From positions 1 through 34,780 of the forward strand of contig JANYKQ010000029.1 in NCBI GenBank assembly GCA_025358115.1: a DNA stretch of 34,780 nt. The letters run 5' to 3'. Positions 19,946 through 30,296 of this stretch are shown here, one piece after another; position 1 is the first letter of the stretch, and every line of letters begins with the position of its first letter. The notes under the pieces were generated by a model. It saw only the letters and a list, made by a program, of their open reading frames with translations. It was not told the DNA's origin and searched no databases. The DNA comes from Methanomicrobiales archaeon. Its GTDB lineage: Archaea > Halobacteriota > Methanomicrobia > Methanomicrobiales > Methanospirillaceae. Position numbers and translations under genes: made by a program.

Positions 19946-19959
19946 GGAACCTTTCTTCC
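19946..19959. promoter_or_regulatory. Predicted NrpR operator at glnA
   Basis: GGAA-CCTTTC-TTCC matches exactly the GGAA-N6-TTCC operator described for the nitrogen repressor NrpR in Methanococcus maripaludis. It starts about 10 bp after the TATA box and ends 3 bp before the glnA ATG, covering the expected transcription start. Under nitrogen sufficiency NrpR would block glnA transcription. Confidence 0.75.
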
Positions 19960-19962
19960 ATT

Positions 19963-21288
19963 ATGTCAGCAGACGTAACGAAGATGCTCAAGAAAATTGA
20001 AGCGGATGGTGTGAAATTCATCCGTCTCCAGTTCACGGATATCCAGGGGATGCCAAAAAACGTCTCTATCCCTACCATCCAGGCTGAGAAAGCGCTTACG
20101 GAAGGTATCTGGTTTGATGGATCATCTGTTGAAGGATTTGCGCGGATCGAAGAATCCGATATGATCTTAAAACCGGACCCGGCAACCTATGCAGTACTCC
20201 CATGGAGACCTCAGGAAGGTAAGGTCGCCCGCTTTATCTGCGATGTCCAGACATATGGCAACAAGCCTTTTGAGGGAGACCCCCGGTTTGTGCTGCGCAA
20301 GACATTAGCAGAAGCAGCAAAGATGGGATATACGTTCAATACCGGACCGGAACTTGAGTTTTTCCTGTTCAAGATGTACGATGGCATACCCACAACGGAG
20401 TTTGTAGATCATGGGGCCTACTTTGACCTCGCTCCCACCGACTCAGCAGAGGACGTTCGTCGCGATGTTGTTCTGGCACTCAGTGAGATGGGCTTTGAGA
20501 TTGAAGCATCCCACCACGAAGTGGCTGACAGCCAGCACGAGATTGATTTCAAATATGGCGATGCCCTCACCACTGCTGACCGTGTGATCACGTTCAAATT
20601 TGCAACCAAGTCGATTGCCCTGCAGTACGGCCTCCATGCGTCGTTCATGGCAAAGCCGATTGGGGGTATCAACGGCAGCGGTATGCACACACACGGCTCA
20701 CTCTCCAAGAATGGCAAGAATGCCTTCTTCGATCCCAATGCTGAACTGCAGCTCTCCGACACCTGTATGTACTACATTGGCGGTCTCTTAAAGCACGCAC
20801 GGGCAATCACGCGTGTTGCCAACCCGACCATCAACTCGTACAAGCGCCTCGTCCCCGGTTACGAAGCACCCTGCTACCTTGCCTGGAGTGCAGCCAACCG
20901 CTCTGCCCTTGTCCGCGTTCCCGCAGCCCGTGGCAACAGTACCCGTGCCGAGTTCCGCAGCCCGGACCCGATGTGCAACCCGTACCTCACCTTTGCCTGC
21001 ATGCTCGCAGCAGGAATGGACGGCATCAAGAACAAGATCATGCCACCGGAGTCAACCAACACAAACATCTACCACCTCAATGCGAAAGACCGCAAGCGGC
21101 TCAAAGTCGAGATGCTGCCGGCCAGCCTTGCGGAAGCTAACGCAGCGCTCCTCAAGGATGAGATCATCTGCAACACGCTCGGACCCCACATTGTGGAAAA
21201 CCTGACCCGTATCGCTGAGATGGAAACAGATGCCTTCCGGCTCGCAGTTCACCCGTGGGAACTCGACAGGTACCTGGCAACATACTAA
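19963..21288 (+). CDS. glnA: Glutamine synthetase type I (alpha)
   Basis: 441 residues. ATP-dependent synthesis of glutamine from glutamate and ammonium. Seen: WFDGSSVEGFARIEESDMILKPD near 45-67, the metal-binding GPELEFFLF, the ATP-binding NGSGMHTHGSL, NPTINSYKRLVPGYEAP, and the glutamate-binding NRSALVRVP and RAEFRSPDP. The adenylylation tyrosine segment of the bacterial beta type is absent, as usual for the alpha type. The upstream in-frame ATG at 19888 precedes the TATA box and operator, so it cannot be the start; ATG 19963 (MSADVTKML) fits the family. A T-run directly after the stop codon (about 21290-21297) likely terminates it. Confidence 0.95.
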   Translation: MSADVTKMLKKIEADGVKFIRLQFTDIQGMPKNVSIPTIQAEKALTEGIWFDGSSVEGFARIEESDMILKPDPATYAVLPWRPQEGKVARFICDVQTYGNKPFEGDPRFVLRKTLAEAAKMGYTFNTGPELEFFLFKMYDGIPTTEFVDHGAYFDLAPTDSAEDVRRDVVLALSEMGFEIEASHHEVADSQHEIDFKYGDALTTADRVITFKFATKSIALQYGLHASFMAKPIGGINGSGMHTHGSLSKNGKNAFFDPNAELQLSDTCMYYIGGLLKHARAITRVANPTINSYKRLVPGYEAPCYLAWSAANRSALVRVPAARGNSTRAEFRSPDPMCNPYLTFACMLAAGMDGIKNKIMPPESTNTNIYHLNAKDRKRLKVEMLPASLAEANAALLKDEIICNTLGPHIVENLTRIAEMETDAFRLAVHPWELDRYLATY

Positions 21289-21325
21289 TTTTTTTTGGAT
21301 CTCAAACATCAAATTTAAATACGTA

Positions 21326-21339
21326 GGAATGCAACTTCC
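21326..21339. promoter_or_regulatory. Predicted NrpR operator at amtB-glnK
   Basis: GGAA-TGCAAC-TTCC, a second exact GGAA-N6-TTCC palindrome, begins 4 bp after the TATA box AAATTTAAATAC (21311-21322). It covers the expected transcription start of the amtB-glnK operon. Confidence 0.75.
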
Positions 21340-21545
21340 TTCTTACAAAATTTAACCAAAAAGAGAGAACTGATCGCAATGACAACCTCAAATCCAGAAA
21401 AACCAAATTCCCCGGACTTTCTATCCGGTTTTAGTCTGGTGGAAGTCTCGACCGGTTCTCGTACAGGATCGAAAACCGGGATTATGGAGAGATACCTTAA
21501 TTGTCCCTCATGACAATGCAAATTTTATTTATGTAGGTGAAAAAA
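21340..21545 (+). promoter_or_regulatory. Long structured 5' leader of amtB-glnK
   Basis: About 200 nt lie between the predicted transcription start and the amtB ATG. CCGGA (21412-21416) can pair with TCCGG (21424-21428). CCGGTTTT (21425-21432) can pair instead with AAAACCGG (21472-21479). CCGGTT (21452-21457) competes for the same AACCGG. These mutually exclusive stems suggest RNA-level control. The amtB ribosome binding site AGGTGA is at 21535-21540. Confidence 0.45.
21379..21513 (+). CDS. Possible 44-codon ORF in the amtB leader
   Basis: An ATG-to-TGA frame of 44 codons (begins MTTSNPEKPNSPDF) lies inside the amtB leader. It has only a weak purine-rich stretch about 10-15 nt upstream, and its codons overlap the alternative hairpins, so it may be fortuitous. 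It matches no family I know. If translated, ribosome movement would change which leader hairpin forms. Confidence 0.25.
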   Translation: MTTSNPEKPNSPDFLSGFSLVEVSTGSRTGSKTGIMERYLNCPS

Positions 21546-23104
<1,559 letters not shown>

Positions 23105-23113
23105 GAAAAACCC

Positions 23114-23165
23114 AGAATCCGATCAAAACTTTTTCCCTAAAGCAGGAAAAGATTCTCCTTTTTTC
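23114..23165 (+). terminator. Hairpin terminator after glnK
   Basis: Nested stems AGAATC/GATTCT (23114-23119 with 23151-23156) and CTTTTTCC with GGAAAAG, followed by a T-rich tail. It ends the amtB-glnK transcript. Confidence 0.6.
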
Positions 23166-23235
23166 TGAACATCGACGAAATATCCGGTGCGATAAAATTT
23201 TCTTATTCAGAGTGAATCCAAGGTGCGTGAAAAAA

Positions 23236-23595
23236 TTATTGAAAATCCAGCAAAGCGTGTAATTTCATCTCTATATGCGGGGAAACCGGATAATGAGATG
23301 GAATAGTCAATGTGCCGGTATCCTGCTGTATTGCTTCTTCAAGATCATCTTCAGAAATACCTAGTTTCTCATGGTCCACAACTTCGTGGAAGAATATCTT
23401 ACCCCCGCCGGGCACTATCCGGCACAGGGACAGATATCCATCCCCAGCCCGGATATAATAATATGACGAACCAATCAATGATGACTGATAGTCCTGCAAC
23501 TGTTCCAGAATTGACAGATAGTCTGGTTCCGATGCATCCGGCATGACATACCGCGGCACGGGATCCACACTGCTCATTTTTTTTGCGCTTGGCAT
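23236..23595 (-). CDS. Unknown 119-residue protein, predicted nitrogen-regulated
   Basis: A small acidic soluble protein with no signal peptide, membrane segment or paired cysteines. It contains aromatic and glycine-rich stretches (SSYYYIRAGDGYLSL, IVPGGGKIFFHEVVDH) and an acidic helix (SEDDLEEAIQQD). I recognise no family. The start has AAAGGAGGGG upstream on the minus strand. Its promoter carries a TATA box (TTTATATTTA, complement about 23677-23688) followed at once by an exact NrpR-type operator. It lies between amtB-glnK and the nif-mod operon, so a role in nitrogen metabolism is likely; this is inference from regulation and position. Confidence 0.75.
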   Translation of the reverse strand: MPSAKKMSSVDPVPRYVMPDASEPDYLSILEQLQDYQSSLIGSSYYYIRAGDGYLSLCRIVPGGGKIFFHEVVDHEKLGISEDDLEEAIQQDTGTLTIPSHYPVSPHIEMKLHALLDFQ

Positions 23596-23662
23596 TTGCG
23601 TTCCCCTCCTTTCTTTCGCATCACCTTAAACCCGTACATATGATGCGGGCCTGAGGTACGAT

Positions 23663-23676
23663 GGAAGTATCCTTCC
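23663..23676. promoter_or_regulatory. Predicted NrpR operator at the 119-residue protein gene
   Basis: GGAA-GTATCC-TTCC, the third exact GGAA-N6-TTCC palindrome in the window. On the minus strand it directly follows the TATA box of the unknown gene, the same geometry as at amtB. The predicted transcript begins near 23660, leaving a leader of about 65 nt. Confidence 0.7.
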
Positions 23677-23772
23677 TAAATATAAATAGTTATCTATTAA
23701 TGTAGCAAAACAGAGTATACGCCAAGAGCAGATTGTTATTTAGTAGAATGGCAGACAGTTAATACTGCAATT

Positions 23773-24918
23773 ATGATCCCGTGGCTTAATTCTAATTTTA
23801 AAAATTTCAAACCCAATGCCAAAATCGCCCTCAACGCCACGCGGCACATGAATAAAGTAGAGCGGAAAAAATTATTCTCTCCGGACATTGAACCCATGCG
23901 CACTGCGGAGGGACGCTGGTTCGAAGCAATCGTATACGAAATGTTTCTGGAGATCTCCAAGGACTCAGACCGGATAAAATACCTCGCCATGAAAGGGGCT
24001 GATGCTCCCCAGCAGCGCGACAGTGTCCAGCTCGGCCAGAATGGCATTTTTTATTCAAAATATGGTGATATCACCGTCCGGGGAAATGGACAGGATCTTG
24101 CGGAGTTCGACCTGCTCCTCGTTGACTCGGACAACCATATTGCGTTTGCCGAAGTCGTCACATCCCCTGCGGACTTAAAAGAATTTGAAGCAGAGATTGA
24201 ATTCAAGAAAAAACTCCTGGGTTACCTCTACAACCAGAAGGTTACCCCGTTCCTTTTGGTCTCCTCCTTTGACCTCTCCAACTATTCTGTAGTCAAACGG
24301 TTGGCAAAGGACAAGACAAATGCAATCATTAACACCAGCTCATGCGAGCAGATTAAATCGCTGGTAAAACATTATCGTCCCCGCATCCTCTATAACAATC
24401 CCGATAATCACCCAAAACTGATCCGGGCAACAGATATCCCGACAAAAAATCCGTTTGATTATAAACGGTACCACGATGATGTACGCACCCAGTTTTTTGC
24501 AGAGATCACAAAAACAGGCGGAAAGAAAAACATGGCGATAACGAGCCAGACCGGGCAGATCGTTAAAAAAGTGTTATACGGAGGTCTCTTTCCCCCGGCA
24601 ATAAAAGCTCTCTGTGATTCCTATGGACTTTCCGTGAAAGGAAAGAAGATCGAATATGCAGAATTTTCAAAATATTATTCAAAGGCGATCATTGCTACCG
24701 ATCTTCCCGGGTTTGAGCTGATCATCTACCTGCGATCAAAACAGAAGAAAGAATATCACAAAATGGTACAGGTCAAAGATGGGCACTTCAAATTTGAACG
24801 TCCGACACCCCCAAAGGTGGGATTCTTCCTCTGGTTGGAAGCGATTCAGCCTTCACTTGGCACGAGGATTACCCTTCAGGTACTCGATACATTTTCCATA
24901 GGGGAACAGACGCGGTAG
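23773..24918 (+). CDS. Putative PD-(D/E)XK nuclease-like protein
   Basis: 381 residues, lysine-rich. Residues about 45-170 resemble a restriction-endonuclease fold: GRWFEAIVYEMF (E51), then LAEFDLLLVDSDNHIAFAEVVTS with D113 and E127, then a helix EIEFKKKLLGYLY and a strand VTPFLLVSS. The usual ExK lysine is replaced (E-V-V); Lys145-147 on the next helix could stand in, or the site may be inactive. The C-terminal 200 residues match nothing I recognise. No methyltransferase partner lies nearby. A weak TATA (TTATTTAG, about 23736-23743) suggests an almost leaderless transcript. The assignment rests on motif spacing only. Confidence 0.45.
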   Translation: MIPWLNSNFKNFKPNAKIALNATRHMNKVERKKLFSPDIEPMRTAEGRWFEAIVYEMFLEISKDSDRIKYLAMKGADAPQQRDSVQLGQNGIFYSKYGDITVRGNGQDLAEFDLLLVDSDNHIAFAEVVTSPADLKEFEAEIEFKKKLLGYLYNQKVTPFLLVSSFDLSNYSVVKRLAKDKTNAIINTSSCEQIKSLVKHYRPRILYNNPDNHPKLIRATDIPTKNPFDYKRYHDDVRTQFFAEITKTGGKKNMAITSQTGQIVKKVLYGGLFPPAIKALCDSYGLSVKGKKIEYAEFSKYYSKAIIATDLPGFELIIYLRSKQKKEYHKMVQVKDGHFKFERPTPPKVGFFLWLEAIQPSLGTRITLQVLDTFSIGEQTR

Positions 24919-28606: not shown

Positions 28607-28915
28607 CTAGATCACCAGTCTTTCGACTACGGCGCCTCCTTCGATATGGCTTTCAAGGATCTCTTCGACATCTGCCAGTGTGACCGACCCGTACCAGACA
28701 TTTTCGGGATACACCACGACAATGGGTCCCTTCTCGCAGATGCCGAAGCACCCGGTATTGGAGAGGAAGACATCGCCACCGATGCCCCGTTCCTCGATCC
28801 CTTCCATGAATTTCATCATGACATCGACTCCTTCCTTTGAGTGACAGAAGCCTTTCTGCTGGCCGTTGGGCCGTGAGCTTGAACAGACAAAAATATGGTG
28901 TGTTGGTTTTTGCAT
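28607..28915 (-). CDS. Thioredoxin-like [2Fe-2S] ferredoxin
   Basis: 102 residues from the ATG at 28915, which follows the nifN stop codon by one base (TGAGATG). Cysteines C11 and C24 (C-x12-C) near the N-terminus and C56 and C60 (C-x3-C, NTGCFGIC) match the thioredoxin-like [2Fe-2S] ferredoxins. HIFVCSS, GQQKGFC and the GPIVVVYPENVWYG segment are typical. In nif operons such proteins are thought to donate electrons or protect nitrogenase against oxygen; which applies here is not known. Confidence 0.88.
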   Translation of the reverse strand: MQKPTHHIFVCSSSRPNGQQKGFCHSKEGVDVMMKFMEGIEERGIGGDVFLSNTGCFGICEKGPIVVVYPENVWYGSVTLADVEEILESHIEGGAVVERLVI

Positions 28916-28916
28916 C

Positions 28917-30296
28917 TCAGGCACCTTCCCGGATACCCATCTCTTCTTTCCGCAGTTCGCGGTACGATTCGTATTTGGTCTCCAGCAGTGCGTTGGTGAA
29001 CCGGTCAAGGAATGCTAAAGTTCCCGTGTACCCGGCCGACAACACCCGCTGCCCCCCGGTCCGGTCATGGATGGGAAATCCCACCCGGATGACCGGGATG
29101 CCCCGGCGTTCGGTGAGGAATTTCCCCCCGGAGTGGCCGATAGCAATGTTTGCTTCAGCCTTGAAACCTGCCTCATCAATTGCGGCGAAGTCGGTCTCCT
29201 CAAGGATAACCGGCCGCTCGTCCGCATCGGCAAGGAACGTTGCCAGCAGCCCGGTGAGCCGGCTGCTCTTTGTTCCGCTTGCAATGACAACCGGGACGGC
29301 ACCATTCTCCACGCAGATGCTGGAGAATGCGTACACGAGTTCGGGCTCGCCGTACACGATCGGTCGTCCGTCCGCGTTGAACTTGTGGGAGTCCGCCATG
29401 CCGTCCAGCAGCCAGCCCCGTTCCCGTTCAAGAATGTCGGGCAGTGACCGGCCGCTCAGTTTTTCCAGGGTTTCGACAAGGCGGTCCATGTTCTGCAGGC
29501 CAATGGGCAGGGGCAGGTTGTGCAGTGGCACACCGTACTCCTGTTCGAGAAGCAGGCCGGGTGACAGATTGTCGGGGCAGGTGACGCCGAACTGGATGGT
29601 GGCTCTCGCTCCGGACATGCGGGCGATGTCCTCTGTTTTTGTCCCGCCGGGGGGAATTTTCTGGTACCGGCCTCCGTACGGGCGGTCGAGGGTCATCGAA
29701 TAATCCGGCAGCATCGTATACTCAAGCCCGAAGAGCCCGAGGATACGTTTGATCTCCCGGATATCCGCCGGGCTGATATGGGGGATGATCACGTTGATCC
29801 CCTGGTGCCGTTCGGTTGGTTGTGCATAGTACGCAACCAGTTGCCGGCTTGCAGCCCAGAATCCTTCCGTCTGCGTCCCGCTGTAACTCGGGGTGGCTAC
29901 CGGAATGATATCGACTGCTGTGATGCCCCGGTTCTGCCGGTAGGTCGCGACCAGCCGTTCGAGATCTTCTCCCATGGTTTCGGTCAGGCAGGTTGTCAGG
30001 ACGCCGATGACTTTTGGTGCGTAGACCCGGATGACATTGTCAAGCGCCTTGTGCAGGTTTGCCTCCCCGCCATAGATGGCCTGTTTCTCATTGAGGGCGG
30101 AGGATGCGATATCCACCGGTTCATTGTAATGCTCGACATTGGTCAGGCGCATGTAGGTGCTGCATCCCTGCGAGCCGTGCACGAGGACCATCGCGTTCTC
30201 TACTCCTTTGAAGACAACGACCCCGCCCAGCGGCATGCACTGCTGGCACTGGTTCTCGTTCACCTGTTTTACTTTTTGCGTGGCAACAGTTTCCAT
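28917..30296 (-). CDS. nifN: Nitrogenase cofactor scaffold subunit NifN
   Basis: With NifE it forms the scaffold on which the iron-molybdenum cofactor precursor matures. About 459 residues. Early cysteines C17, C20 and C45 (NQCQQCMPLGG, HGSQGCSTY) and LTTCLTETMGED follow the NifK-like pattern; the remainder matches the NifN branch, for example IIPVATPSYSGTQTEGFWAA and ILEETDFAAIDEAGFKAEANIAIGHSGG. ATG 30296 lies 8 nt after AGGAGG; ATG 30302, which overlaps the nifE stop as ATGA, is too close to that site but possible. The ferredoxin gene follows with one base between. Confidence 0.9.
   Translation of the reverse strand: METVATQKVKQVNENQCQQCMPLGGVVVFKGVENAMVLVHGSQGCSTYMRLTNVEHYNEPVDIASSALNEKQAIYGGEANLHKALDNVIRVYAPKVIGVLTTCLTETMGEDLERLVATYRQNRGITAVDIIPVATPSYSGTQTEGFWAASRQLVAYYAQPTERHQGINVIIPHISPADIREIKRILGLFGLEYTMLPDYSMTLDRPYGGRYQKIPPGGTKTEDIARMSGARATIQFGVTCPDNLSPGLLLEQEYGVPLHNLPLPIGLQNMDRLVETLEKLSGRSLPDILERERGWLLDGMADSHKFNADGRPIVYGEPELVYAFSSICVENGAVPVVIASGTKSSRLTGLLATFLADADERPVILEETDFAAIDEAGFKAEANIAIGHSGGKFLTERRGIPVIRVGFPIHDRTGGQRVLSAGYTGTLAFLDRFTNALLETKYESYRELRKEEMGIREGA

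Follow-up and report, generated by a model that had tools for sequence, protein, structure and literature searches.

In Methanococcus maripaludis, the operator consensus of the nitrogen regulator NrpR is GGAAN6TTCC, and the regulon reported for it includes nif, glnA, glnK-amtB, two molybdate transporters and a Na+-alanine symporter (PMC2723118). The action of NrpR and its release by 2-oxoglutarate are documented as well (PMC2723118, PMC11957540), and a TATA box together with an NrpR operator has been found to precede the nif operons of another methanogen (PMC8809328). Two small proteins of Methanosarcina mazei are also on record: sP36 (61 aa) connects GlnK1 with AmtB1 at ammonium upshift and has reported homologues in Methanosarcinia, Halobacteria and some bacteria (PMC10714827), and sP26 (23 aa) is a partner of GlnA1 (PMC11957540). 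According to the authors of the sP36 study, GlnD is encoded by no archaeal genome (PMC10714827).

Members of the Methanomicrobiales are important methane makers in wetlands and digesters. The window, i.e. the whole stretch of DNA analysed here, comprises 34,780 nucleotides of a contig from a Methanomicrobiales archaeon (GCA_025358115.1, JANYKQ010000029.1) and contains a small gene that we refer to as X119 (Table 1). A previous sequence-only reading of the window had placed this gene between amtB-glnK and the nif-mod operon; the placement is right, with the addition that a 381-aa gene intervenes on the nif-mod side. On the gene strand, the X119 promoter reads ACTATTTATATTTA-GGAAGGATACTTCC-ATCGTACC. 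The TATA box followed by GGAA-GTATCC-TTCC that had been noticed there is indeed present, the latter being the GGAAGGATACTTCC palindrome as it appears on the plus strand, and so is the same composite arrangement of TATA box and operator at amtB. The transcription start was placed by the general rule that it lies about 25 nt from the TATA box. The bare GGAAN6TTCC pattern is found at 3 sites in the window (glnA, amtB and X119) against 0.84 expected, and at least 3 sites were reached in 3 of 100 shuffles of the window; by itself, the pattern is only mildly unusual there.

Table 1. Coordinates of X119, its predicted control elements and neighbouring features in the window.
Feature	Position	Strand	Remarks
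operator-like palindrome before glnA, GGAACCTTTCTTCC	19946..19959	+	TATA-like box farther off than at amtB and X119
NrpR operator (predicted) of amtB, GGAATGCAACTTCC	21326..21339	+	pattern search
amtB	21546..22760	+	named in the sequence-only reading; relatives aligned
glnK (PII, PF00543)	22775..23104	+	convergent to X119; Pfam match
X119	23236..23595	-	119-codon ORF, stop codon included; acidic protein; undescribed family
Shine-Dalgarno-like GGAGGGG before the X119 ATG at 23595	23603..23609	-	sequence read directly
leader hairpin of X119	23624..23656	-	CCU/AGG as outer stem, 23650-23644 pairing with 23636-23630 as inner stem; homologues show compensatory changes
inferred transcription start of X119	23657	-	~25 nt from TATA-box centre
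NrpR operator (predicted) of X119, GGAAGGATACTTCC	23663..23676	-	fits GGAAN6TTCC; between TATA box and inferred transcription start
TATA-like box of X119, TTTATATT	23679..23686	-	sequence read directly
381-aa gene between X119 and mod/nif genes	23773-24918	+	divergent from X119

Comparison of X119 with an 89% identical homologue (L110) yields dN 0.061 and dS 0.885 (dN/dS ~0.07), indicating that X119 is a real protein gene under purifying selection. The part common to its homologues is a domain of ~93 residues, in which K88 is the single invariant column across 39 diverse members, while seven more columns, R36, E48, D61 and S82 among them, are at least 90% kept; such residues could form a binding or catalytic site. 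The computed pI and charge of the X119 protein are 4.64 and -10, and acidity extends to its relatives: the net charge ranges from -2.8 to -10.1 in 19/19 members of the structure alignment A3 (the window plus 18 of the 20 loci of the genome-collection scan described below, L115 having been dropped because its listed match exceeds the protein in length and L129 for being only 50 residues long), and the domain charge is negative in 60 of 61 homologues. The sequence-only reading had recognized no family for the protein, and this is borne out, as a Pfam search with X119 returns nothing at E up to 1, PF00543 included, and the X119 family is without a match in NCBIfam, PHROGs and PADLOC. When the 39 domain members were compared with Pfam, 8 weak families emerged (best E 0.068), each matched by 1-3 members and PF00543 not being one of them. 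A search of X119 against PDB sequences gave nothing above chance, and its predicted structure model, laid out as helix-three strands-helix, matched none of the solved folds clearly. Judging from these comparisons, X119 is a member of an undescribed family defined by a ~93-aa domain and found in Methanomicrobiales; the gene is described in none of the titles and opening lines of abstracts listed by literature searches on NrpR in Methanoregula and Methanomicrobiales, NrpR operators, comparative-genomic NrpR regulons and small proteins with GlnK.

Protein-level matches to X119 were detected in 61 of 232 Methanomicrobiales genomes, some of them weak or broken (in G189, for example, 34 residues with one stop). 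Among 392 sampled genomes from the phylum, all 23 with a match belong to the Methanomicrobiales. Scanning a genome collection of 84,980 species yielded 20 loci, titled Methanoregula, Methanoregulaceae or Methanomicrobiales, and scanning viral contigs yielded zero homologues, both scans being seeded by short conserved peptides, which miss distant members. The working set consists of 61 homologue loci (the window and L050-L109) and represents 56 genomes; five further carriers, whose hits are weak, were left out. In the genus, X119 is missing from 4 of 14 nifH-bearing and 11 of 25 other genomes and is therefore not essential to nitrogen control.

The proximity of the nif-mod genes, ~2-11 kb from X119 in the window, would be in line with a nitrogenase or nif accessory protein, and a nitrogenase partner was among the roles put forward in the sequence-only reading. 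However, a full-length-scoring nifH is present in 13 of 61 X119 carriers versus 26 of 171 non-carriers (Fisher p=0.32), where a nifH call is a match above 440 bits, according to our own reading of a score gap from ~440 to 400 bits (56/232 genomes clear the curated cut-off of 394 bits), and nifH genes that are broken or partial in fragmented genomes are uncounted. The same holds within the genus (10/24 carriers versus 4/15 non-carriers, p=0.50). X119 does not follow nifH, which makes such a role most improbable. Of the two associations that the earlier reading had suggested looking for among homologues, the one with nif genes is thus not seen, whereas the one with the operator is, as set out below. 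At the end of the nif cluster, a 133-aa ORF (28607-29008, minus strand) displays weak similarity to thioredoxin-like [2Fe-2S] ferredoxins (E 2e-4, below the Pfam cut-off).

Genome-wide, the bare GGAAN6TTCC pattern says little, as it occurs 92 times in the genome of the window against 62 times for the reversed pattern. Conversely, the composite of an A/T-rich box spaced as at X119 and the palindrome has only 3 matches in the 2.26 Mb of this genome (reversed control 0), and these are located at amtB, at a second amtB and at X119. The second amtB lies on another contig and has its own TATA box and operator GGAATACACCTTCC (G000:C57:10096-10121; L202:1109-1122); it is 68% identical to the first, the alignment beginning ~125 nt behind its operator site. 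Across seven genomes the composite gives 26 matches, versus 3 for the reversed pattern. Position and tblastn place 13 of them before amtB (7), the second amtB (2) or X119 (4), and one adjoins a PII-like gene in G192; the 12 that are left without explanation may be due to chance. In G176, G193 and G194 the composite is missing at X119, the sites there having 1 or 2 mismatches.

At the homologue loci, we recorded operators located within 265 nt and preceded by at least 11 A/T in 14 bases, and used as controls 466 further ORFs (minimum length 100 aa) from the same loci, with known nitrogen genes set aside. Such a TATA-adjacent operator is perfect at 27 of the 61 loci, has at most one mismatch at 40 and at most two at 47, versus 1, 10 and 34 of the 466 control ORFs; the contrast is descriptive and not a p-value, given that homologues were measured from the domain start and controls from the ORF start, and that the homologues are related. 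Homologues lacking the palindrome would have spoken against the regulon assignment of the sequence-only reading; the palindrome is instead conserved among them beyond chance. When 420 nt of upstream sequence were scanned at 16 loci, L065, L067, L069 and L096 gained perfect sites lying at the 265-nt limit or past it, in the last three of which they are preceded by an A/T-rich box. The operator (at most one mismatch) also accompanies homologues without amtB or glnK within 6 kb (L052, L053, L074, L081, L085), and other genera have relatives that carry it in perfect form (L066, L090, L091, L093-L095, L098-L101, L103, L104, L106). Homologues without an operator of their own at this level include the co-operonic paralogues L054, L056 and L058 as well as L092, which lies behind amtB-glnK; further cases are L059, L060, L063, L064, L068 and L109. 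The sole control ORF with a perfect TATA-adjacent operator encodes a 556-aa product (L077:8924-10594, minus strand), which, judging by its sequence, may be a glutamate-synthase-type protein; ORFs of about this length adjoin X119 in L056 and L076.

The NRD domain of NrpR (PF01995) was found in all 31 genomes examined, with two matches in 29 of them. In the relatives, one kind of NRD protein carries a winged helix ahead of the NRD and the other consists of the NRD alone; Pfam recognized HTH_12 + NRD in L213, the one such protein scanned. These HTH-bearing and HTH-less forms, found in Methanoregula relatives, differ from what is described for M. maripaludis and resemble the NrpRI/NrpRII pair of Methanosarcina. 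As regards the presence of NrpR in the genome of the window, which the sequence-only reading had presupposed, an NRD gene is there, but the one NRD protein seen is HTH-less, and an HTH-bearing one was not seen in this genome, which is 70% complete. Because the operator is kept in homologues at different genomic places and NRD genes are present in 31/31 genomes, X119 very probably belongs to the NrpR regulon, and the original proposal is thereby strongly supported. Repression of X119 by NrpR, with release by 2-oxoglutarate, appears very likely in view of the position of the operator, its conservation and its neighbours. The regulon of M. maripaludis has the operator consensus and the targets glnA and amtB/glnK in common with the present one, whereas the targets listed for it include no X119-like protein (PMC2723118). 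In G161, the X119 homologue (L081:9408-9686) lies ~2.5 kb from an NRD-family (NrpR) gene (L046).

A gltS-gltPurF / glnA-(amtB)-amtB-glnK-X119 block recurs in g1 and g8, two genera of the family. Globally, amtB or glnK lies within 6 kb of X119 at 29 of 61 loci, the nearest being encoded opposite to X119 in 17 cases and on its own strand in 12, and neither is that close at the remaining 32; among the 34 loci that extend at least 3 kb to each side, the corresponding numbers are 19 and 15. Two of the 29 (L092, L096) come from a second family of the order and have X119 and glnK on one strand. In L054, L056 and L058, an apparent amtB-PII operon closes with an X119 paralogue, whose start lies 11-12 nt behind the preceding PII-like gene; in L056, a ~0.6 kb gap separates glnK from the next PII-like gene. 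Members of the PII/GlnK family thus repeatedly adjoin X119, which itself has no PF00543 match. Four divergent PII-like genes stand in a row between amtB and the X119 paralogue in L054 (2595-4186) and L058 (1075-2715), and divergent PII-like pairs adjoin a second type of amtB in L071 and L073.

Linkage to glnK/amtB favours a regulator or inhibitor acting in ammonium assimilation. As X119 has neither a PII match nor a clear solved fold, its putative partner has to be assigned from the genomic neighbourhood alone. By analogy with known systems, we suggest, at about an even chance, that X119 may be an NrpR-regulon partner protein of the GlnK(PII)/AmtB/GlnA ammonium machinery in Methanoregula and its relatives; that GlnK or AmtB, not GlnA, would be its direct target is a more tentative proposition. 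X119 might alternatively target GlnA directly, as a small protein that activates or inhibits it, comparable to sP26 of M. mazei or to the cyanobacterial inactivating factors. Small-protein partners of archaeal glutamine synthetase are on record (PMC11957540), glnA shares the block in many loci and an operator-like palindrome precedes it; nevertheless, the nearest and co-operonic neighbours of X119 are mostly glnK or PII-like genes rather than glnA, and with the PDB sequence search empty as well, we consider action on GlnA unlikely. The 32 loci without amtB or glnK within 6 kb, the absence of a known fold and the kept residues K88, R36, E48, D61 and S82 could also be explained by a nitrogen-starvation protein that is merely in the regulon and has a task unrelated to PII, Amt or glutamine synthetase (a small enzyme, storage or stress). 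This explanation is rendered doubtful by the co-operonic paralogues and by the linkage to amtB/glnK, which recurs on both strands and in two families within the order.

Seen as a partner of the ammonium machinery, X119 would resemble sP36 in being a small, soluble protein that is produced under nitrogen limitation and linked to GlnK/AmtB in an archaeon lacking GlnD, all of this being predicted from sequence on the side of X119; the negatively charged surface of sP36, proposed to suit AmtB, also has a parallel in the acidity of X119 (PMC10714827). The two differ in length (61 versus 119 aa), and X119 was found only in Methanomicrobiales. X119 could fill the place of sP36 in this order and work like it. 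With sP26, X119 shares a proposed modulation of methanogen nitrogen assimilation, but sP26 is far shorter and has GlnA1 as its target (PMC11957540).

A functional pair of X119 and the divergently encoded 381-aa protein was also considered and ruled out, since 209 of the 232 Methanomicrobiales genomes contain the latter, compared with 61 for X119. The 381-aa protein has no Pfam match above cut-off and no NCBIfam family; PADLOC returned a weak match to a CARF-PDDEXK model (E 0.009). In many relatives, a AAATAACAATCTGC-like element (written on the strand of X119) recurs in the promoter of this gene.

The leader of X119, from the inferred start to the ATG, is 62 nt long. Where the hairpin is expected, 23 of 27 Methanoregula-group leaders are predicted to form a stem of 5 bp or more, whereas shuffled sequences reach a mean of 9 and at most 16 of 27 (300 rounds). 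From these 27, 19 leaders were cut to the hairpin and 15 kept for alignment A6, four with indels (L052, L071, L078, L086) being dropped. In the 15 aligned leaders 90.7% of cells pair, and the covariation score is 0.549 versus 0.247 in shuffled alignments (0/500 as high), while slid controls do not exceed 0.142; as the leaders are related, shuffle controls overstate their independence. Both sides have changed in 6 of the 10 pairs, a number not above control (shuffled mean 4.7; reached by 100/500 shuffles, and by 95/500 for the 24-sequence alignment). The 24 leaders aligned with the model score 0.359 versus 0.167, again with 0/500 shuffles as high, in an alignment that leans to structure. The covariance model R1 recovered the four dropped leaders plus five from outside the 19 (L062, L074, L075, L079, L085) and missed L051, L053, L084 and L089.

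In genome searches, for which 150 of 296-450 first candidates per genome were scored, the X119 leader was the best R1 match in 8/8 carrier genomes (E 3e-14 to 0.04), nothing better than E 0.067 was obtained in 4/4 non-carriers, and the genome of the window had one non-leader match at E 0.02. All 24 R1 matches in 37 fetched loci are X119 leaders. The idea of a widespread RNA element finds no support, convincing matches being confined to X119 across 12 genomes and 37 loci. RNAalifold returned no structure for the plain alignments A4 and A5, the hairpin becoming visible on shorter segments, and whole-leader free-energy z-scores are modest (mean -1.4, n=42). In 14 leaders of a distant group, stems are little above shuffles (mean 5.4 vs 4.5), with at least 5 bp in 11/14 (shuffles average 6, at most 10), and we accordingly claim the hairpin for the Methanoregula group only. 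Rfam 15, applied to 21200-24000 with E up to 5, gave one match, snoZ103 on the plus strand at 23143-23250 (E 0.39, below cut-off), which is not over the leader; on eight further loci, only a tRNA reached the gathering score.

On the simplest reading, the message would begin at the foot of the hairpin, which would then be an RNA-protecting 5'-terminal stem. In several predicted folds, the stretch just upstream pairs with the ribosome-binding site, and the leader may control translation. The confinement of convincing hairpins to X119 would also fit a protein that binds nucleic acid and autoregulates its own message through the leader, the more so as the helix-three strands-helix layout of the model is also used by some RNA-binding domains. 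X119 is acidic, however, an RNA-binding fold does not stand out, and the arms of the hairpin vary freely, so that its shape rather than its letters would need to be read; we regard autoregulation as very unlikely.

Our best explanation, which takes the operator, its conservation, the genomic linkage, the protein family and the leader hairpin from the sequence and adds an inferred transcription start, hairpin role and binding partner, retains X119 as a partner of the ammonium machinery. With ample ammonium, NrpR bound to GGAAN6TTCC between TATA box and start would block RNA polymerase; under nitrogen starvation, rising 2-oxoglutarate would release NrpR, leading to joint production of amtB, the second amtB, probably glnA, and X119. 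The X119 mRNA would start with a small hairpin, possibly protecting the message or tuning its translation. The soluble, acidic protein would act post-translationally, most likely by binding GlnK (or a GlnK-AmtB or GlnK-GlnA complex), and would set the speed at which transport or glutamine synthesis is shut down once ammonium is back, as proposed for sP36. X119 would then be made in starvation only and be bound to GlnK or AmtB at upshift. It represents a concrete, conserved candidate for Methanomicrobiales, sP36 having been reported from Methanosarcinia and Halobacteria (PMC10714827), and the undescribed protein family and the covarying leader hairpin would be additions to the methanogen nitrogen regulon. 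A bolder version, which we hold to be quite unlikely, is that X119 represents a new kind of PII/Amt gate with its own fold, whose synthesis is controlled at two levels, through NrpR on the DNA and through a private hairpin where the message is inferred to begin, the amtB-PII-PII-PII-PII-X119 operons of some genomes forming a larger nitrogen-sensing array; X119 would in that case do in Methanomicrobiales the job of GlnD-driven uridylylation in bacteria and of sP36 in Methanosarcina.

The amtB leader of the window contains a hairpin as well, CCGGACTTTCTATCCGG (21412-21428, plus strand), for which Rfam gave no match. The pattern CCGGACTTNNNATCCGG, with varying loop letters, is present in 11 of 14 amtB leaders. 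Searching 8 genomes returned 11 occurrences, distributed over 7 of them, and 0 for the reversed control; by position, seven occurrences are in amtB leaders, one in G140 is without identification and three are elsewhere. These three, CCGGACTTAAGATCCGG in G192, G193 and G195, lie in what was read as a tRNA anticodon arm, which the amtB hairpin resembles.
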